Of a DNA stretch of 35,511 nt, positions 5,644 through 15,815 are shown in pieces. Under the pieces are notes generated by a model that saw nothing but the letters and a program-made list of their open reading frames with translations, was not told where the DNA came from and searched no databases. Source of the stretch: a virus; the IMG/VR virus record IMGVR_UViG_3300030380_005856, positions 1 through 35,511 of that record. One strand, written 5' to 3'. Each line of letters starts with the position of its first letter. Positions within the stretch are counted from its first letter, which is position 1. The position numbers were made by a program, and so were the translations under genes.

Positions 5644-5651
5644 TATTTATG
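5644..5651 (-). promoter_or_regulatory. Late-promoter-like box CATAAATA
   Basis: CATAAATA on the minus strand, one base from the T4 late consensus TATAAATA, lies 16 bases before the ATG of the 649-residue fibre gene and overlaps the stop codon of the preceding gene. A second start point for the fibre and adhesin pair is plausible but not proven. Confidence 0.35.
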
Positions 5652-8600
5652 AGGACTCTAATGTAGCAACTCTTGCTTCTAGTTCCTTGATTGCATTAAT
5701 TAAAACTGGTATCAATCTATCATAACGAACTGCCTTAGTTCCATTGTCTCTTGTAGTGGTTATACCAGGTAGTCCAAGTGACTCAACATCCTGTGCTATT
5801 ATACCAGTATCCTTTCCATCTGTTCCATAAGAACCAACATCAACATTTTTCCAATCAAAGGTATATCCAGTGATTAATCCTACTTTTGATAAAGCATTAG
5901 GTATAACAACAAGGTTTTCTTTAAGATTTATATCAGATGAAGCAAAAGCAATAATATCATCACCAACATGTAATTTTCCACCAATACCAACACCACCATC
6001 AACTGTCAATGCTCCAGTAGTTTTGTTAGTAGATGCAGTATTTCCTGATACTGTTAAATTAGTTGTAACCTCAACAGTATTACTAGCAGCATCTAGTATA
6101 AGATTACCAGATGAAGTGTCAATTTCATTTGCACCTGAACCAGCGATTTTTACATTTTGTGCGAGAACATTATTAGTTGATAATCTAGTTCCATCAAATA
6201 ATAAATTACCAGATGTTGTGGTTGTATTTGTTCCATTATTGAATAGAACTCGTCCAGAAGTTCCAACAACATTTGTTGCTAAAGACGCTGTATCTGCATT
6301 ACCAGTAACATTACCTGTTAAGTTACCTATGAAGGTTGTTGCAGATAATGCGTTGGTTGCGAAGTTAAATGTTAGTTGTGGATCAGTTTTCACAGTTGTC
6401 ATTGTACCAGATGTTTTATCTGTTAATACAACTCGTTCAGTTCCAGTCGAAGCAGTAGATAATGTTGCACCTGTATTTGTTAGTCCAGAACCATCACCAA
6501 AGAAGGCAGTCGCAGTTACATTATTAAATCCTGAAAGATTTGATGCACCATCACCAATCAGATTACCACCGATACGTAAATCTTTTGCAAGACCAAGACC
6601 ACCATCAATAACAACTGCACCATTAGTAACAGCAGTAGTATTATCTGTATTTCTGAATCTTGCTTTTTGTGCTCTAATTTCTGACTCAGTAACTAATTGT
6701 TTTGTTGGGTCAGATAATCTAACATTATTATTAAATGTTACTGGTCCATCAAACTGAGATAAGATCTGCTTAGAAGTTCCACCCTCAACTAATAGTCTTT
6801 CCTTAACGATTATTTCATCGGCAACTATACTTAATCTATTTGGATCTTCACCTGTGATTGTTGGAATTGGAATATCAAATGTGGTTTGTTGTCCGCTTGA
6901 TGATGAAATCTTAGTGTTACCAATATAGAAGTCACCCTTATCATTCATACCAGTATAAACAACGTTACCACAAGATGTTTCTTGTGACTGTGATAGGAAC
7001 TCTTCTCTTTCTGATAATGTTCTATTCTGTAACTGTGGTAATGCAGTTGAATAGTTACCAGGACCATAACCAAGATACTCAAATGTGTGACCTGATGCTC
7101 TCAATATAGATGGTCTACGAAGTTCTATCGCTAGTGGTTTGACTTTCTTGATCTTAGAATTAATTGGATGTGTAGAACTAATAGTTCCCAATGCACCACG
7201 AACAACAGATATTTCGTCACCAGCTCCACCACTTAATGTGCTGGATGCAACACGCATAATCTCACCATCTATCTGAATATAAGATCCAAGTGGGAATCTT
7301 TTTATAATAGATGTGGCATTTGTTCCACCATCAGGTAGTTTAACCTTAAATGCTATGTCAGATGAAGTTATTGCTTCATTTGATTTAAGTGTTTCATGAT
7401 CAAATACTGATAATCCCCTGACACCTACATTTTCACCACCTGTTGATGATAATGCTTCGTTAGCAGATAAACCATGTTTTAGTATAAATGCTGGCGATGT
7501 AAGTGCGGATGTTGTGGTTGCAGTAAATGTATCTACATCAGTTACAGACTTGACAACGAAATCTCCAAGATTTGCATCACTACCATTTAATACTCGGAAT
7601 GAATTACCAACAACTAAACCATGTGCCTCTGTTGTATTAAAAGTTGTGATTCCACCACTATGCGATGCTGATGATACTGATACCCAAGGACCAAGATCAA
7701 TTACTTGCTGACCAACTAATACTTTATCACCCGATGCCTTCTTAACACTAATAATATTTGTAGATGTTACACCATTAATACGATAGTAAGCATCAGTTCC
7801 AGTTGATAAACCTGTCACCTGAACATAATTACCTGTTGCAGATGAAATACCAGCAGTGACTATTGAGATAGATGCACTTGGAGAACCAGCAATACCACCA
7901 GTTGCAACGGATGAACTATCAAAGAAGAGTGTTTCTCCATTTGTATAACCTGAACCACCCTCTGTAATATCAACAGAAGTAACTGCTCCTCCTGAAACTG
8001 TAACCTGTGCTGTTGCACCATCCCATACAGCAGATGCAGGTGATGCATTTGTATTAAATAATTTTACGTTGTGATATGTGCCATTTGTATGACCAGAACC
8101 ACCTGTAATAGTATTATGGAATTTAAGTGCTTGAAATTCATGCTGTTCATTAAATGTTAAATCAGCAGTAGTTGTATTGTCTGTAACTGCACTTACTGTG
8201 TTAGATACATCAAAAGATTCAAGGAATTTATTTGTTGTCTCCCTTGTGATACTCTTCTTTAAGTCATTAGTTACAACATCACCAATTGGGAATCTCTTCG
8301 CAAATGATGTTGCTTCTTGTGGATTATCATCAACATTATCACGATCATATTCAGGATATAAGTTGACTATATTCTGATTAAAGGTGTCTATATCAAACTG
8401 ATTTGATGCATCAGTCATTGCATTGTCACCGTTTAATACAAATAGATGATAGATACCATCCTGAACACCCTGAATATAAGGGGTAATTACCTCAGATCTG
8501 TAAATGAATAAGTTATCCTTATTATTGTTACGATCAAATCTTGGAAGTAATGTTGAACGTGTCTGAGTTGTATTCGTAAATGTTCCGACTGTATGAACTG

Positions 8601-11355
8601 CACCTAAAGTATCCGTATTAGAATATCTAAACTGCTTACTATTATCTAAATCAGTGACTAAAAATGTGCCATTATATCCTTTATTCTCTACACCATCAGA
8701 GTTTGTTGAACTCTGTGCGTTTCTGACAATAATTTGATCTCCAACATTTACATTGTGTGGTTTATCTGTCCTTACTGTAACCTTATTAGTCCCACTATCA
8801 AAAGTTAATTGAGAAATAAATCTAGTATTACGATCAAAACCATAATCATTTGATGTTAATGATGTCTTTGTGAAGTCAGTGTCTGCTGTAACATTTGTTG
8901 AACTTGAATCTTGTAAAACAAAACCTTCAATCGGATCTCTTGCATTAACAAGTTCCTTTGGTATCACATATCTTAACTTATAAACTTTCTCATCAATACT
9001 ACGATCATCATCCCTTCTTAACACATAAGTAATATCATCATCAACTAAAGATCCTAAATTAGATTGAATTGTATTACCAGATGTGTTTGTATGAACGAAC
9101 CACTGTGTGCCATCATATTGGATAGGATGTCCCTTATCATTTGGATTTTTATCCGATACACGACTAACAATATCAAATTCGTCATTAACAGAAGCCACTG
9201 TGTTTATAAAAACAGGTGTTGCTAACTCTGCATTTGTTTTGGATGATGCAATACGTATCTGATCAGTGCCGAGACTTGAATCACCAGCAACAGTAATTGC
9301 AAAATAAAGTTTATGTGGATCTAAATTTTCTGGTAAGTCACCATTATCTGCAAATATTCTTATAGATTCTCCGTTTTGTAAATTATGCCCTCCACTAAGA
9401 GTAAATACAGATTTAGCAGTGGCGGTTGTCGCAGAGTGTGTTGCTTTATAAGATTTCTTACCTGAATCAGTTGTGCCAGTGGTTACACCATTTGACATTA
9501 CAATGGTTGCTTCATAAGTGCTACCACCTTTATCAATGAATAATTTATCATTAGTTTTTGCACCTATACGGAAACCCTGTGCTATACCTGATGGTGGTTC
9601 TGTAAGTGTAGTCTGACCTAGAAGGTAAAGTTTAGATGTCGTAGTTTCTGAAACATCAATCTGTAAATACTCAATCTTCTGATTTGTGGTAACAACTGAA
9701 CGTGGTGTGATGACTGATGTTACAAATCCTTTATCATCTTTTGCAAATGCTTCTTTCTTAAATCCTTCAGCAGCAAGAGCAAATGTTCCAAAGTTAGAGT
9801 TAGAGTTTGTAATCGACGCATCAGCACCATTAATCATATTAAAATGACTATGGAATCCAATCGCAAACACTGACACAATCTGAACGACTGCATCATTACT
9901 TACCTTAATATGACTTGTTCTAAATCCTTTTCGGTAGTTTGCCTCTTGGTCTAAGTGATATACTGTATTTGGATTGGTTGATGATGACTCAGATGATAGT
10001 AATTCGCCAGTTTGTTTTGAGAATTGAATACCACTATATGTTCTATTAGTTGCATCATACTTGACAAAGGCACGATCATCTTTCTGAAGAGATACAGCAG
10101 TAAATTGTGCCACAACCATTGACTTGAATCCAGTTGCCTTTGCACCATCAGCATGCATACCCTGCATACCAAATACAGAACGAAGAGATATATTGAAGAT
10201 ATATGGTGATGCACCTGTAACTGTGTCAGTCTCAACTAATACTTGTGCGTTTGCAGAACTTAATCCACCAGCAGAACCTGCTGGAAGATTTGGTCTTACA
10301 AAAGGTAAAAGATATGTAAATTTGTTAGTTGATAAGACACTTCCAACCTTTGTTGAGATATTATAATCGGGAACATTGACACCACGAATCTTAATTGGAG
10401 TGCCACCAGATAAATTGTGTGGGACTGCTGTTGTTACTGTAACCTGTTGACCAGGTGTTGCACCATCACCAGACTCTATATTAGTAATATTAAGGGGATC
10501 TGTGGCAAAAGCACCGACAATCTCAAATTCAGGTCTTTGTGGAGCAAAAGATTTAGGTGCTGCTGGATACTTTTGGTCTATCTCACGACCAGATGCTCTG
10601 TTGAATGCATTTGTTAATTTACTATAGTAGATGTCTAAATCTGTCAATCCACTAAACTGATCAAATGTATTCACACCGTCAGCATACTCAAAACAAGTTA
10701 CCTTATGGTGAGAGAAAGTTGGTTTTGAGCGATTATTATCACTAAAATCTGTTGGATCTGTGAAAACAGTTCCTGATTCATCACCATCAAAGATAGTGAA
10801 TTGCCAGAAGTAACAAGCACCAGTAATTCGGAATATTGCTGTTTGTAATGTAGTGCTGTCTGTTGGGTTAGGAACATATTTTGGTCTTATCTTTGTCTTT
10901 CTTAAATCTAGTCCAACGATAGATGTTCCTCTTGGAACAACAACACCACCATTTACACTATTAAATTTATAAAGTATATTATCTTCTTGTGTTAAATCAA
11001 AGTTAGAGTCTAGTGTAAGTTCTAAAGTATTCGATGCTCCCGTTGCTGCCCCTGCTGGACTGACTGCTTTTGCAACACCACCATCATTACGGATAGCAAA
11101 ACCAGGTCTATTATCAACTATATGCTCGCCAGGATATAAAAGTATTGTGGTTCTTTCAACTAAGTCGTTGTCATCTCCTCGTAGATATGAGAATCTAGCA
11201 GCCTCAATGAGTGCTCTTTGAATTGTCTTGAAGGGTTTGGTTAATGAATTACCTTGATTTTCAATCCCATCTGTTGAATCAAGATCATTTGGATTTACAT
11301 AAAGAATACGACCTTCAGTGTTCTTTATGAAATTCTCTAACTTATTAAGAGGCAT
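5647..11355 (-). CDS. Giant tail fibre with C-terminal S74 self-cleaving chaperone
   Basis: This is the largest gene here, 1902 residues. The N-terminus has a pectate-lyase-like beginning (GRILYVNPNDLDSTDG, then KPFKTIQRALIEA near 40-52), followed by a long beta-rich region. A block near 500-540 (ITNSNSNFGTFAL) and one near 1423 (HTFEYLGYG) recur in the 1081-residue fibre. DGG-type repeats lie near 1570 and 1780, and LTGNVTG near 1675. The last 96 residues, from SDINLKEN at 1807, match the intramolecular chaperone of endosialidase (S74): Ser1807 and Lys1812 have the i/i+5 spacing of its self-cleaving dyad, and the end (LINAIKELEARVATLESS) is a coiled coil. The chaperone would help the fibre trimerise and then be cut off. 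The 2-oxidised or enzymatic activity of the beta-helix is not evident. Confidence 0.8.
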   Translation of the reverse strand: MPLNKLENFIKNTEGRILYVNPNDLDSTDGIENQGNSLTKPFKTIQRALIEAARFSYLRGDDNDLVERTTILLYPGEHIVDNRPGFAIRNDGGVAKAVSPAGAATGASNTLELTLDSNFDLTQEDNILYKFNSVNGGVVVPRGTSIVGLDLRKTKIRPKYVPNPTDSTTLQTAIFRITGACYFWQFTIFDGDESGTVFTDPTDFSDNNRSKPTFSHHKVTCFEYADGVNTFDQFSGLTDLDIYYSKLTNAFNRASGREIDQKYPAAPKSFAPQRPEFEIVGAFATDPLNITNIESGDGATPGQQVTVTTAVPHNLSGGTPIKIRGVNVPDYNISTKVGSVLSTNKFTYLLPFVRPNLPAGSAGGLSSANAQVLVETDTVTGASPYIFNISLRSVFGMQGMHADGAKATGFKSMVVAQFTAVSLQKDDRAFVKYDATNRTYSGIQFSKQTGELLSSESSSTNPNTVYHLDQEANYRKGFRTSHIKVSNDAVVQIVSVFAIGFHSHFNMINGADASITNSNSNFGTFALAAEGFKKEAFAKDDKGFVTSVITPRSVVTTNQKIEYLQIDVSETTTSKLYLLGQTTLTEPPSGIAQGFRIGAKTNDKLFIDKGGSTYEATIVMSNGVTTGTTDSGKKSYKATHSATTATAKSVFTLSGGHNLQNGESIRIFADNGDLPENLDPHKLYFAITVAGDSSLGTDQIRIASSKTNAELATPVFINTVASVNDEFDIVSRVSDKNPNDKGHPIQYDGTQWFVHTNTSGNTIQSNLGSLVDDDITYVLRRDDDRSIDEKVYKLRYVIPKELVNARDPIEGFVLQDSSSTNVTADTDFTKTSLTSNDYGFDRNTRFISQLTFDSGTNKVTVRTDKPHNVNVGDQIIVRNAQSSTNSDGVENKGYNGTFLVTDLDNSKQFRYSNTDTLGAVHTVGTFTNTTQTRSTLLPRFDRNNNKDNLFIYRSEVITPYIQGVQDGIYHLFVLNGDNAMTDASNQFDIDTFNQNIVNLYPEYDRDNVDDNPQEATSFAKRFPIGDVVTNDLKKSITRETTNKFLESFDVSNTVSAVTDNTTTADLTFNEQHEFQALKFHNTITGGSGHTNGTYHNVKLFNTNASPASAVWDGATAQVTVSGGAVTSVDITEGGSGYTNGETLFFDSSSVATGGIAGSPSASISIVTAGISSATGNYVQVTGLSTGTDAYYRINGVTSTNIISVKKASGDKVLVGQQVIDLGPWVSVSSASHSGGITTFNTTEAHGLVVGNSFRVLNGSDANLGDFVVKSVTDVDTFTATTTSALTSPAFILKHGLSANEALSSTGGENVGVRGLSVFDHETLKSNEAITSSDIAFKVKLPDGGTNATSIIKRFPLGSYIQIDGEIMRVASSTLSGGAGDEISVVRGALGTISSTHPINSKIKKVKPLAIELRRPSILRASGHTFEYLGYGPGNYSTALPQLQNRTLSEREEFLSQSQETSCGNVVYTGMNDKGDFYIGNTKISSSSGQQTTFDIPIPTITGEDPNRLSIVADEIIVKERLLVEGGTSKQILSQFDGPVTFNNNVRLSDPTKQLVTESEIRAQKARFRNTDNTTAVTNGAVVIDGGLGLAKDLRIGGNLIGDGASNLSGFNNVTATAFFGDGSGLTNTGATLSTASTGTERVVLTDKTSGTMTTVKTDPQLTFNFATNALSATTFIGNLTGNVTGNADTASLATNVVGTSGRVLFNNGTNTTTTSGNLLFDGTRLSTNNVLAQNVKIAGSGANEIDTSSGNLILDAASNTVEVTTNLTVSGNTASTNKTTGALTVDGGVGIGGKLHVGDDIIAFASSDINLKENLVVIPNALSKVGLITGYTFDWKNVDVGSYGTDGKDTGIIAQDVESLGLPGITTTRDNGTKAVRYDRLIPVLINAIKELEARVATLESS

Positions 11356-11682: not shown

Positions 11683-13272
11683 TTAAATAATCTCCTGAAC
11701 GGTTAATGATGTTCCCTTCATTACTTTAACAGGACCATTACCATTACTTCCATAACGTCTAAACTTAAGATAATAAGTAACATTATTTCCACCATGACTA
11801 TAAGAATCCCTAACTGTTAAGTTAAAACCTGTATGAGTATAACCAGAGTTACCACTATGATCTGCTAAACTACTTACTGCAGAATACCCTATTGTTGAAC
11901 CACCTCTATACAATATAACTTCACATTGGTTTTTTTCTGGGTCATCGTAGTCATCTTGACGATATGATCCCATCATTCCAGCAGCAACAACTAATAATTT
12001 AGAACCACTTACTGTTGGATTGATAGTTATAGTAGCAGCAGTTTGATAAGACTCGGAGCTGGTTGATGTATCATTAGATCGCATAGTTGATTCAATTGCT
12101 GGTGTTTGTCCAGCACCAGGTTCTCCCTTTTGTCCTTGAGAACCTGTAGATCCTGTATTACCTTGAGCACCTTGAGCACCTTGAGCACCCTGTGCACCTT
12201 GAGCACCTTGAGCACCTTGAGCACCTTGAGAACCTACTTCTCCTTTTTGACCTTTATCTCCATCTGAACCAGCAGATCCTGTTGAACCACCAGAACCTGT
12301 GGCTCCTACTTCACCTTTCTGTCCTTTATCTCCACCAGTTCCACCAGCACCTGTTGCTCCTTTTTGTCCTTTTGATCCATCACTACCATCAGCACCAGAA
12401 CCACCATCTGCTCCAATCTCACCTTTCTCACCTTTCTGTCCGTTCTCTACAGTATTAATAGTCCCAACCATCGAACCATGATACTGACAAATATAATAGA
12501 GAGTTGCAGGTGCATTAGATGGAACTACAAATGTCAGAGTTCCCACCTGAACACCATTATTTGTTACACCAGTTGTATATTGATTTCCTGTTCCAGTTGA
12601 TGCAGAAGTTTTGATATAGAATGGATGACCACTTGCATTAACGTTGAATGTATAAGTAAATCCACGAACAAGAGTAAGTGTGGGATTATTTGATCCATCA
12701 ATCTGATAAGCACTTGCACCACTATTAGTTACAGTAAAGGTTTGAGAACCTGTTGCACCTGTTTGACCCTTATCTCCTTTCTGTCCTTTGTCACCGTCTG
12801 AACCGTCTGAACCATTCGATCCATTTGTTCCTGCATCACCTTTCTGTCCTTTCGATGCTGCTGCACCTGCTTCACCCTTTTGTCCTTTATCACCATCTGA
12901 ACCAGATGAGCCACCAGCACCCACTTCACCTTTTTGTCCCTTATCACCACCAGCACCTACTTCACCTTTTTGTCCCTTAACTCCATCAGCACCAGTTCCA
13001 TCTTCTCCTTTCTGTCCTTTGTCACCAGTTCCACCAGTTCCACCAGTAGATCCTATCTCACCCTTTTGACCTTTATCTCCACCAGCACCTGTTGCTCCTA
13101 CTTCACCTTTCTGTCCTTTTGTTCCATCAGCACCAGTTCCATCCTCTCCTTTCTGACCTTTCGTTCCTGATGATGAATTTAATTTCCACGCAGAACCATT
13201 CCAGACAAATGTTAAACCATTTTCTGTAAAAGTATCATTGAGACTAGGACTATTTGGAAAATTTGCTGCCAT
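11683..13272 (-). CDS. Collagen-like fibre with inserted cupredoxin-like domain
   Basis: The 529-residue protein has three kinds of segment. Residues 1-35 are a short anchor (NFPNSPSLNDTFTENG, then FVWNGSAWK) shared with two neighbouring fibres. Residues 36-175 and 278-390 are Gly-X-Y triplets rich in KGQKGE, with seven GAQ triplets near 347-370. Between them, residues 176-275 form a cupredoxin-like domain with His216 (GHPFYIKT), Cys262, His265 and Met268 (ICQYHGSMVGTI), the ligand set of a type 1 copper site. Residues 391-529 form a non-repetitive C-terminal tip. Collagen repeats would make a trimeric rod. The copper site is predicted from motif only. It lies upstream of the small ORF at 11424 and next to the fibre chaperone gene. 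Confidence 0.75.
   Translation of the reverse strand: MAANFPNSPSLNDTFTENGLTFVWNGSAWKLNSSSGTKGQKGEDGTGADGTKGQKGEVGATGAGGDKGQKGEIGSTGGTGGTGDKGQKGEDGTGADGVKGQKGEVGAGGDKGQKGEVGAGGSSGSDGDKGQKGEAGAAASKGQKGDAGTNGSNGSDGSDGDKGQKGDKGQTGATGSQTFTVTNSGASAYQIDGSNNPTLTLVRGFTYTFNVNASGHPFYIKTSASTGTGNQYTTGVTNNGVQVGTLTFVVPSNAPATLYYICQYHGSMVGTINTVENGQKGEKGEIGADGGSGADGSDGSKGQKGATGAGGTGGDKGQKGEVGATGSGGSTGSAGSDGDKGQKGEVGSQGAQGAQGAQGAQGAQGAQGAQGNTGSTGSQGQKGEPGAGQTPAIESTMRSNDTSTSSESYQTAATITINPTVSGSKLLVVAAGMMGSYRQDDYDDPEKNQCEVILYRGGSTIGYSAVSSLADHSGNSGYTHTGFNLTVRDSYSHGGNNVTYYLKFRRYGSNGNGPVKVMKGTSLTVQEII
12161..12232 (-). repeat. Nine-base tandem repeat coding Gly-Ala-Gln triplets
   Basis: Eight consecutive nine-base units: six match CCTTGAGCA on the plus strand (12161-12187 and 12197-12223), one is a variant (12188-12196, two changes) and the last has one change. 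They encode the GAQ run of the collagen-like fibre. A multiple of three keeps the frame when copies are gained or lost. Confidence 0.9.
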
Positions 13273-13274
13273 AA

Positions 13275-13721
13275 TTATGAAGGTTTAGTTGGCCAAGTTG
13301 GATTAGCAGGGTCACTTGTGTTTGCAGGGAGATCTCTTAATGCTTGTCTGTATGTTTTCCAATCATTATCGTTTGCTAAAGTAACATCTCTGGATTGTGT
13401 CCAGTCAGAGTCAAACAATAAATCATCTCTTTCAACTCTTAACTTTTCCCACAAAAATGTCGTATCAGAAACTGCCTTATCAGATTGATCCTTCATTCTC
13501 GATAATTCATTATTTAATGTTTCCTCTGCCTGAGAGTATATACCTAATGAATTTATGGTGGCACTTTGTTTTCCATCATTATATTCTATCTGTCCCTTAG
13601 ATCCATCCCAATGTACAGCATGAACATCAGATGGTATCCAAGACATATCAGTGCTGATACCTGTGATAATGGTTGTTCCAATACCTATTGTTTTATCTGA
13701 TGGAATAATTACTAAATTCAT
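13275..13721 (-). CDS. Tail-fibre assembly chaperone (Phage_tail_APC-like)
   Basis: The 148-residue protein ends with a pattern typical of phage tail assembly chaperones: LRVERDDLLFDSDWTQ (residues 93-108), then a W..YRQALRDLP segment and a final P-x-WP-x-KP. The N-terminal half (about 1-65) is beta-rich and contains VHAVHWDGSKGQIEY. Proteins of this kind help nearby fibres fold or trimerise and are usually encoded next to them, as here between two collagen-like fibre genes. Its stop codon is two bases from the next start, and GAGGA lies about ten bases before its own ATG. An ATAAATAA box at 13741-13748 could start late transcription. Confidence 0.7.
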   Translation of the reverse strand: MNLVIIPSDKTIGIGTTIITGISTDMSWIPSDVHAVHWDGSKGQIEYNDGKQSATINSLGIYSQAEETLNNELSRMKDQSDKAVSDTTFLWEKLRVERDDLLFDSDWTQSRDVTLANDNDWKTYRQALRDLPANTSDPANPTWPTKPS

Positions 13722-13738
13722 TGATGATATTTTCCTCT

Positions 13739-13788
13739 ACTTATTTATTTACGATTTCATAATATAACAAAGTGCATAATATGGAGGT
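13739..13788. repeat. Direct repeat, copy 1
   Basis: Fifty bases that match 14567-14616 at 48 positions, 828 bases away. The repeat covers the end of a collar-domain fibre gene, its stop codon and ten bases beyond it, including an ATAAATAA late-promoter-like box on the minus strand. Confidence 0.9.
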
Positions 13789-14564
13789 CTATTTTCGTGT
13801 GATCCCGATCCACCTTGATTGTTTGATGTAGGAGCGTAATAAGTACCACTTCTATGTGCTTGACGATATCCACCACCATTTGTCCAGTGATGATCAGCAG
13901 TGTTTGCATTGCTTGTTCCACGAGCACCGTCAATCGCACTTTCATTTCGTGTCCAGACATTATGGAAGTGAGTCGGCATTTGAGATGATGATAGAGTAAC
14001 AGAATTACTACCACCAGTATTTCCAACTGCATATCCATTACCAGCACCAACAACAAATTTATCTCTTAAATCTGGAGTTCCATTTGATCCATTACATAGA
14101 TACCATCCTGATGGAATCGCACCTGATGATCCTGACCATATTATAATACCTCCTGAAGGTATTGCTGCTGTTACTGAACCTACCTCACCTTTCTGTCCTT
14201 TATCTCCGTCAGAACCTGCATTTCCTGTTCCACCAGTTCCACCAGTAGCACCTATCTCCCCTTTTTGTCCTTTTGTTCCAGTCGCATCAGCTCCAGTTTC
14301 ACCTTTCTGTCCTTTAGTGCCTGTTCCACCAGTTCCACCAGTAGCACCTATTTCTCCTTTCTGACCTTTATCACCTACTTCACCTTTCGTGCCTTTCTCT
14401 CCAACTTCTCCTTTCTGACCCTTCTGACCTACCTCTCCTTTCTGACCTTTTACACCTGCTGTTGCATCTTTCTTCCATACGCTTCCATTATAAATCCAAT
14501 CAATACCATTCGCTGAATAGGTATCTCCGTTATTTGGGCTACTTGGGAAATCAAATGCTGCCAT
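13749..14564 (-). CDS. Short collagen-like fibre with tail-collar tip
   Basis: The 271-residue protein has the shared anchor (FDFPSSPNNGDTYSANG, WIYNGSVWK; residues 4-32), a collagen-like rod of KGQKGE triplets (about 36-135) and a C-terminal phage tail-collar domain (about 142-271) with IPSGWYLCNGSNGTPDLRDK, a QMPTHFH motif and the ending PPYYALCYIMKS. In T4 the collar domain occurs in short tail fibre gp12, which binds the host surface irreversibly. This protein and the next gene are paralogues. The start is the ATG at 14564, 12 bases after the neighbour's stop codon, with the direct repeat between them. Confidence 0.8.
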   Translation of the reverse strand: MAAFDFPSSPNNGDTYSANGIDWIYNGSVWKKDATAGVKGQKGEVGQKGQKGEVGEKGTKGEVGDKGQKGEIGATGGTGGTGTKGQKGETGADATGTKGQKGEIGATGGTGGTGNAGSDGDKGQKGEVGSVTAAIPSGGIIIWSGSSGAIPSGWYLCNGSNGTPDLRDKFVVGAGNGYAVGNTGGSNSVTLSSSQMPTHFHNVWTRNESAIDGARGTSNANTADHHWTNGGGYRQAHRSGTYYAPTSNNQGGSGSHENRPPYYALCYIMKS

Positions 14565-14566
14565 AG

Positions 14567-14616
14567 ACTTATTTATTTACGATTTCATAATATAACAAAG
14601 AGCATAATATGGTGGT
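14567..14616. repeat. Direct repeat, copy 2
   Basis: Partner of 13739-13788 (48 of 50 bases identical, same orientation). The two copies bracket the whole 271-residue fibre gene, so recombination between them would remove or duplicate exactly one gene. Confidence 0.9.
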
Positions 14617-15815
14617 AGATTAGTATTTGATGAGGAAGAACCTTGAGAATTAGTTCCTGTATTACTTGGATTACCTGTATTACCACTTATAGAAACAGTT
14701 ACATCTTGTGTGTCTGCTGTATATCCAGAAAGTCTCTGACCATCAGGACCACCAGACTGATCTAATTCAGCGTGTTGGAATACTCGTTGAGTAACATTGG
14801 CAATTCCTGAACTATAGTAATTATTTCCAATTCCTCCACCACTACCCTGTCCAAAGGCATAGTTATGATCGTGAGTTTGACTACCACTAAATGAGTGAGT
14901 ATGATTATTGATTGTATGACTATGAGATACTAGAGTTGAATCTTTGCTACCACCAGTATCATTTACATTATAAGAGTTTCCAGCACCAATAACAAATCTG
15001 TCTTTAAGATTAGGAGTTCCATTATTACCATCACAAAGATACCAACCAGAAGGTATATTATTAGCTGCACCAGACCATAAACCTATGAATCCTGATGGTA
15101 TGCCAGTGGATCCTGCAGAACCTTCCGCACCTTTTTGCCCTTTATCACCAGTAGCACCAGTTCCGCCAGAACCTCCAGTAGCACCTATCTCTCCTTTCTG
15201 TCCTTTAGATGCTGCAGCACCAGCTTCTCCTTTTTGACCTTTATCTCCTGTAACACCAATTTCACCTTTCTGACCCTTATCACCTGTTTGTCCCTTCAAT
15301 GCAGCAGATGATGTAACTGATACCCATTGTGCTGAGTTACCATCATTATAATAAACGTGAAGGTCGGCATCATCACTGTCCCACCACATATCACCTGGTG
15401 CGGGTGTTGGTGATGTTGGAGGACTTGTTCCTATTGTAACAGATGATCCAGCACCTTTTTCACCTTTTGTGCCAGAACCTGTATTACCTATTTCGCCTTT
15501 ATCTCCTTTATCACCTGGAACTGTAGATGGTTCTCCCTTTGCTCCCTTATCTCCATTTGCTCCAGTAGCACCTTTTTCTCCTGCTTCACCCTTCTGTCCT
15601 TGAGGTCCTGCTACAGTTGATGGTGCTCCTTTCTCGCCCTTATCACCTTGACTTCCTGTTGAACCTATTTCTCCTTTCTGACCTTTTACACCTGGTTCTC
15701 CTTTCGCACCAGGATCTGGCACTCTTCTCCAAGCATATCCATTCCATTTCCAAACTCCTCCACCCTCTGTGTGAGTATCGCCTGTATTTGGTGAATTTGG
15801 AAAATTAACTGCCAT
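14577..15815 (-). CDS. Collagen-like fibre with tail-collar tip
   Basis: This 412-residue protein begins with the shared anchor (VNFPNSPNTGDTHTEGG, then VWKWNGYAWR), followed by collagen-like triplets (35-123), a WW module with GDMWWDSDDADLHVYYNDG (124-174), more triplets (about 174-235) and a tail-collar domain (about 236-412) with IPSGWYLCDGNNGTPNLKDR, a histidine-rich stretch (SHSHTINNHTHSF) and the ending PPYYALCYIMKS. The histidines may bind metal, as in T4 gp12, where zinc sits between the three chains; this is inference. It is a longer paralogue of its neighbour and probably an alternative or additional host-binding fibre. Confidence 0.8.
   Translation of the reverse strand: MAVNFPNSPNTGDTHTEGGGVWKWNGYAWRRVPDPGAKGEPGVKGQKGEIGSTGSQGDKGEKGAPSTVAGPQGQKGEAGEKGATGANGDKGAKGEPSTVPGDKGDKGEIGNTGSGTKGEKGAGSSVTIGTSPPTSPTPAPGDMWWDSDDADLHVYYNDGNSAQWVSVTSSAALKGQTGDKGQKGEIGVTGDKGQKGEAGAAASKGQKGEIGATGGSGGTGATGDKGQKGAEGSAGSTGIPSGFIGLWSGAANNIPSGWYLCDGNNGTPNLKDRFVIGAGNSYNVNDTGGSKDSTLVSHSHTINNHTHSFSGSQTHDHNYAFGQGSGGGIGNNYYSSGIANVTQRVFQHAELDQSGGPDGQRLSGYTADTQDVTVSISGNTGNPSNTGTNSQGSSSSNTNLPPYYALCYIMKS

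Follow-up and report, generated by a model that had tools for sequence, protein, structure and literature searches.

A predicted cupredoxin domain with a putative type 1 copper site in the collagen-like shaft of a phage tail fibre

In a collagen-like phage tail fibre of 529 residues, structural modelling gives good support for regarding residues 176-275 as a real cupredoxin domain, and in our reading this domain is probably copper-binding. We consider it fairly probable that it is a true cupredoxin domain with the full type 1 ligand set, built into the fibre as a module of the shaft and serving a metal-dependent role outside the cell. No description of a cupredoxin or plastocyanin-like domain in a phage fibre was found in the open-access literature, and none of the libraries searched catalogues the family.

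Results

Organization of the fibre gene

The window, that is, the whole stretch of DNA analysed here, comes from a record that is itself a virus fragment of 35,511 bases, and it resembles the stretch that encodes fibres in the large cyanophages P-SSM2 and P-SSM5. The features of the fibre gene are collected in Table 1. KGQKGE collagen repeats precede and follow the domain (Pfam Collagen, E 1.5e-27), the first 36 residues resemble the beginning of the adjacent collagen fibre at 13749-14564 when the translations are read directly, and the tip gives no match in Pfam. The original prediction had located a cupredoxin-like domain at 12447-12745, a placement that holds except for its exact ends, which are off by one or two bases (residues 176-275 correspond to 12448-12747), and the four candidate ligands that it named, His216, Cys262, His265 and Met268, are present at those residues of the open reading frame. 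Rfam, tRNA and tandem-repeat scans returned nothing relevant except the collagen repeats. Two more collagen-like fibres with collar-type tips lie beside the gene (13749-14564 and 14577-15815, minus strand), both without the cupredoxin domain, and a tail fibre of 1902 residues with a Peptidase_S74 chaperone domain at its end is encoded at 5647-11355 (minus strand).

Table 1. Features of the tail fibre gene and of the gene directly upstream, in positions of the window
Feature	Position	Strand	Basis
Tail fibre gene, 529 aa	11683..13272	(-)	ORF; PHROG tail fibre families and Pfam Collagen
N-terminal segment, residues 1-36	13165..13272	(-)	Translation read directly
First collagen-like rod (KGQKGE), residues 37-175	12748..13164	(-)	Sequence; Pfam PF01391
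Predicted cupredoxin domain, residues 176-275	12448..12747	(-)	AlphaFold2; Foldseek and VIA matches; family survey
His216, first putative copper ligand	12625..12627	(-)	Aligned with plastocyanin ligand His
Cys262, putative copper ligand	12487..12489	(-)	Aligned with type 1 Cys
His265, putative copper ligand	12478..12480	(-)	Profile alignment
Met268, putative axial ligand	12469..12471	(-)	Profile alignment
Second collagen-like rod, residues 279-388	12109..12438	(-)	Sequence; Pfam PF01391, best stretch 329-387
C-terminal tip, residues 389-529 (141 residues)	11686..12108	(-)	Comparison with relatives
Tail fibre assembly chaperone gene, directly upstream	13275..13721	(-)	Pfam PF16778 Phage_tail_APC, E 1.4e-17; PHROG tail fibre assembly

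Predicted fold and relation to known families

The AlphaFold2 model of the fibre domain, based on an alignment of 53 viral copies, reached a pLDDT of 94.7 and a pTM of 0.87. When it was searched with Foldseek, AcoP came first (8.3e-6), then rusticyanin, followed by nitrite reductase/oxidase cupredoxin domains, plastocyanins and a CuA chimera with the amicyanin loop, and the matches listed among solved structures were all cupredoxin-fold copper proteins. The best structural matches, with 2.1-2.3 A over 91-96 residues, were the N-terminal domain of the Hyphomicrobium denitrificans nitrite reductase (VIA-align Z 11.2, 2.1 A, 91 residues) and rusticyanin (Z 11.0). Likewise, the gp9 connector of Syn9-like phages was modelled from a separate alignment; its model has a mean pLDDT of 61.9 that rises to about 90 for residues 301-406, a C-terminal domain only about 40% identical to the fibre domain; this part matches the same nitrite reductase domain (Z 10.6) as well as rusticyanin and amicyanin. 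Both models display a Greek-key beta sandwich of the cupredoxin type and have solved cupredoxins at the head of their match lists. The cupredoxin-like fold first proposed from the sequence is thus supported by two models from separate alignments. Nitrite reductase, rusticyanin and AcoP are members of respiratory or iron-oxidizing chains, whereas no such partner is seen for the fibre domain.

In sequence searches, no entry of Pfam, NCBIfam or the PDB names the domain. Pfam PF25489, an At5g54830-like domain, covers most of it, weakly, with 19 bits against a gathering cut-off of 27 (E 1.4e-3, and 6e-5 in bacterial relatives); NCBIfam returned for the fibre only collagen-like and repeat proteins, all below cut-off; none of the copper-protein models of the two libraries, including those of plastocyanin (PF00127/TIGR02656) and amicyanin (TIGR02657), reached its threshold with the fibre; and a PDB search with the single domain sequence gave no match. 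A family profile built from 30 diverse members is weakly similar to solved cupredoxins, mostly at E > 0.01, with values of 3e-4 and 6e-4 for nitrite reductases, 0.014 for pseudoazurin and 0.12 for plastocyanin, and an intermediate relative (L138) gives 0.0028 with Copper-bind and 0.0012 with halocyanin, all below cut-off. A profile of the N-terminal half alone gave chance matches only. Amicyanin, plastocyanin and pseudoazurin are like the fibre domain in predicted fold and ligand order, at a full-length identity of about 20%; these proteins are free electron carriers, whereas here the domain sits inside a collagen fibre.

The putative copper site

Cys262 is the sole cysteine of the domain, and His216 and His265 are its only two histidines. 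When the same 100 residues were shuffled 200,000 times, the loose pattern H-x30-70-C-x2-4-H-x2-4-M arose in 73 shuffles (about 4e-4); the ligand motif alone is unlikely to be due to chance, and its conservation is far stronger evidence. In the family profile H, C, H and M are all in register with those of fern plastocyanin 1kdi; nitrite reductase 9cck (E 3e-4) and pseudoazurin 2ux6, the latter itself C-x2-H-x2-M, align with its C-H-M loop. The arrangement expected of a type 1 site is also seen along the predicted strands, with the cysteine right after the penultimate strand and the first histidine just before a middle one. The spacing of the fibre loop, C-x2-H-x2-M, had been correctly read as tighter than the C-x2-H-x4-M of plastocyanin, which it does not match, and it has a precedent in amicyanin: the title of PDB entry 2vmj spells out the loop CTPHPFM, which we take to be that of amicyanin and which has the same spacing. 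The residue after the first ligand histidine is Asn in plastocyanin and amicyanin, while multicopper oxidases have His-Pro at the type 1 histidine. Since a nearly invariant Pro (96.6%), and not Asn, follows His216, the second shell of the putative site is not plastocyanin-like.

Conservation and joint loss of the ligands

Only six columns, H, P, Y, C, H and M, are invariant among the 30 diverse members, and four of them are the ligands, the chance of four given columns landing among six of 100 being 3.8e-6. All four ligands (HCHM) are present in 362 of 384 full-length unique copies, with His216 retained in 96.4%, Cys262 in 94.8%, His265 in 94.8% and Met268 in 96.9%, counts that come from copies related by descent and not from independent events. 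The loci were partly found by patterns containing the ligands, and copies that had seeded no search were counted separately; HCHM is present in 82 of 95 of these, and in 14 of 14 copies at GenBank phage loci that plain tblastn had recovered. In a bacterial copy (L101) the axial Met is replaced by Gln, as also occurs in stellacyanin.

Where the ligands are lost, they are lost as a set. Cys262 and His265 disappear together in 20 of 20 cases, several of which are truncated or loop-gapped copies (17 have letters at both positions), and the 14 losses of His216 all fall within these 20. Intact copies outnumber Cys-less ones by about 18 to 1. The fold residues are kept in the decayed copies, about half of which share an open reading frame with an intact copy, and Tyr260 is retained in 99.5% of the 384 copies. 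The type 1 ligand set of the original prediction is therefore supported by residues that are in register with plastocyanin, conserved and lost jointly; that homologues might lose them, which had been named as one outcome to speak against it, applies to decayed copies only, where the loss is joint, and retention prevails. As to the other outcome named, a predicted fold that keeps the four residues apart, the fold obtained matches copper proteins.

These data also bear on the view that the fold is an accessory only, a decoration or weak carbohydrate binder comparable to Ig-like domains in which the four residues serve for packing. Spare beta-sandwich domains are common in phage tail proteins, and the ligand-less copies keep the fold and persist, often beside intact ones, both of which favour such a view; however, conservation of the ligands exceeds that of almost every core residue, and an all-or-none loss is predicted by a metal site and not by a packing role, so that we regard a fold-only function as unlikely. 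Decayed copies with Cys and His both gone, fold residues kept and an intact copy in the same open reading frame are found at L038, L063, L321, L343, L348, L351, L356, L369 and L371. Four further phage loci (L384-L387) encode proteins whose tandem copies are all decayed, with no intact one seen in the open reading frame, and a fold-only derivative is possible for these.

The nature of the metal is a second point to be weighed, since cupredoxin sites can bind several soft metals and the site might hold zinc, iron or another soft metal, or else copper that purely stabilizes the released virion. Iron has been proposed at HxH motifs in the tail fibre of the marine Alteromonas phage R22Y (PMC11705849), likewise a suggested metal in a marine phage fibre, although both motif and metal differ from those of the cupredoxin domain; a zinc site has been predicted in YHYH tail domains (PMC7824862). 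Nevertheless, the ligand set and the amicyanin-type spacing are those of a blue copper site, and a purely stabilizing copper is at odds with the loss of the site while the fold is kept, which leaves both variants rather improbable.

Shaft and tips

The fibre-like protein PSSM2_028 of P-SSM2, annotated 'phage tail fiber-like protein' (YP_214260), has the same layout of collagen, cupredoxin domain with ligands, and collagen, but differs from the 529-residue fibre in the letters of the collagen repeat and in the C-terminal tip. Close relatives combine the same collagen-cupredoxin-collagen shaft with a collar-type tip (L001) or with glycine-rich tips (L002, L004), and the tip of the 529-residue fibre is found again, 75% identical, on a shaft that has neither collagen nor cupredoxin (L388/L389). 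Because the tips swap while the shaft module stays, the domain is unlikely to set host specificity.

Distribution in phages and bacteria

Of the 50,697 phage records of GenBank, 362 encode the domain; Synechococcus and Prochlorococcus phages make up most of them, along with a few phages of Pelagibacter and Methylophilales. In IMG/VR the fibre-domain query alone matched 387 places, and other queries added hundreds more in overlapping sets. Its phage hosts are fibres, gp9-like connectors (PF07880 plus the domain) and subtilases (PF00082 plus the domain). In PHROG 677, the gp9 baseplate wedge-tail fibre connector of T4-like cyanophages, the C-terminal 105 residues or so correspond to the fibre domain (E 2.6e-27) and share its four ligands and cupredoxin fold; gp9 has T4_gp9_10_N (PF07880), whereas the fibre lacks it and has collagen rods and another tip instead. 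The same C-terminal domain of about 105 residues, with all four ligands, ends the gp9/gp10-like connectors at L087 (Syn9 NC_008296 79017-80237) and L146-L225, and is unannotated in the records seen. Two cyanophage proteins of subtilase type (L084:782-2824 and L086:1842-3848) also have the cupredoxin domain at their end, the assignment being based on PF00082 in L084 and on the annotation 'subtilisin-like serine protease' in S-H9-1.

A pattern-limited scan of cellular genomes, for which profile A1 was chosen as profile A2 was too diverse, gave 52 loci, mostly in Bacteroidota, Myxococcota, Acidobacteriota and Pseudomonadota, and returned none from cyanobacterial genomes; some of the 'cellular' contigs look viral, such as L132 with PF07880. 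The closest cellular relatives, with up to 63% identity, are exported bacterial proteins. Many bacterial relatives have N-termini that, read by eye, are signal-peptide-like or lipoprotein-like, and some are partnered with CHRD, DUF7282 or secreted-repeat domains. Among the neighbours inspected there is no constant copper partner; they include a cytochrome c gene (L098), DUF1800/DUF1501 (L101) and a putative porin (L138). The simplest cellular member is a Methylotenera protein of 128 residues (L126:670-1053) consisting of a signal-peptide-like start and the domain. Six marine alphaproteobacterial proteins (L099, L103, L105, L111, L116, L118) carry two tandem copies, one typical and the other very divergent, and a signal peptide is not obvious in them.

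The family tree (102 columns, few starred branches) is poorly resolved, with viral and bacterial copies interleaved and at least three viral/bacterial changes forced by starred branches. The initial impression that the domain is peculiar to a receptor-binding fibre did not hold, since it is also present in gp9 connectors, subtilases and exported bacterial proteins, and in the fibre it belongs to the shaft and not to the tip.

Discussion

Based on the models and the family comparison, we hypothesize that the cupredoxin domain is a modular knob between two segments of collagen rod. As collagen rods are trimeric, the fibre would presumably be a trimer, with three cupredoxin domains side by side. 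The metal at the site would be copper, most likely acquired after lysis, in oxic water, because the cytoplasm, where virions are put together, is poor in copper. A metal-dependent extracellular role that does not set host specificity is suggested because tips are exchanged and decayed copies lose the ligands jointly while keeping the fold, and an extracellular setting is in keeping with the signal-like N-termini of many bacterial relatives and with the T4_gp9_10_N or subtilase partners in phages. The most likely role would be a tip-independent, copper-dependent docking to the cell envelope, or redox contact with it. A closed type 1 site does no open-site catalysis, and electron transfer or structure-linked binding would consequently be the realistic chemistry. 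Several points speak against this reading: Pro in place of Asn after His216, the weak sequence similarity to solved cupredoxins, the copper-protein models of Pfam and NCBIfam that the fibre fails to reach, the seeding of part of the survey by ligand-containing patterns, the truncated or gapped copies among the 20 losses, and the fact that no functional partner was identified.

That hundreds of aquatic phages share the domain suggests metal on their tails. We put forward only tentatively the broader proposition that copper-loaded type 1 sites, located on baseplate connectors and fibre shafts and put to metal or redox use at cell contact, are borne by the majority of T4-like cyanophages and by many further aquatic phages. 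A related proposal, modelled on the iron hypothesis (PMC11705849), is that a copper-handling surface receptor of the host recognizes the metal-loaded shaft in the manner of a Trojan horse. The wide occurrence of the domain in marine phages would agree with it, but no such receptor is known, the domain is also found in baseplate connectors and subtilases, away from the tips, and the exported bacterial proteins that have it need no host receptor; we hold this to be very unlikely.

Plastocyanin works in the thylakoid lumen, which would be beyond the reach of a fibre shaft. Imitation of host plastocyanin, or descent from a phage-borne petE, is the least credible reading and highly improbable: it would fit the cyanophage lineage, and some relatives, including P-SSM2, carry petE plastocyanin as a separate gene (PMC2984593), but the nearest cellular relatives are the exported proteins described above, from Bacteroidota, Myxococcota, Acidobacteriota and other groups, with none returned from cyanobacterial genomes by the pattern-limited scan, and plastocyanins are reached only at E of about 0.1, with a C-x2-H-x4-M loop.

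If, as we favour, copper is bound by the fibre domain, it would place redox-active copper proteins on the outside of tailed phage virions, which are undescribed in the open-access literature found, and virion-borne extracellular copper proteins may then constitute a previously unrecognized class, provided that the sites are copper-loaded. Copper would thereby join the metals considered when phages are discussed as ligands in sea water, and a so far unannotated part of the gp9 connector would be accounted for in many cyanophages. The all-or-none loss of ligands offers a clean evolutionary test of function. Outside tailed phages, two small stand-alone 'beta-sandwich proteins' from Pithovirus and Marseillevirus genomes (BFVD A0A481Z6J5 and A0A481YVH3) match the fibre domain model with TM values of 0.77-0.80.
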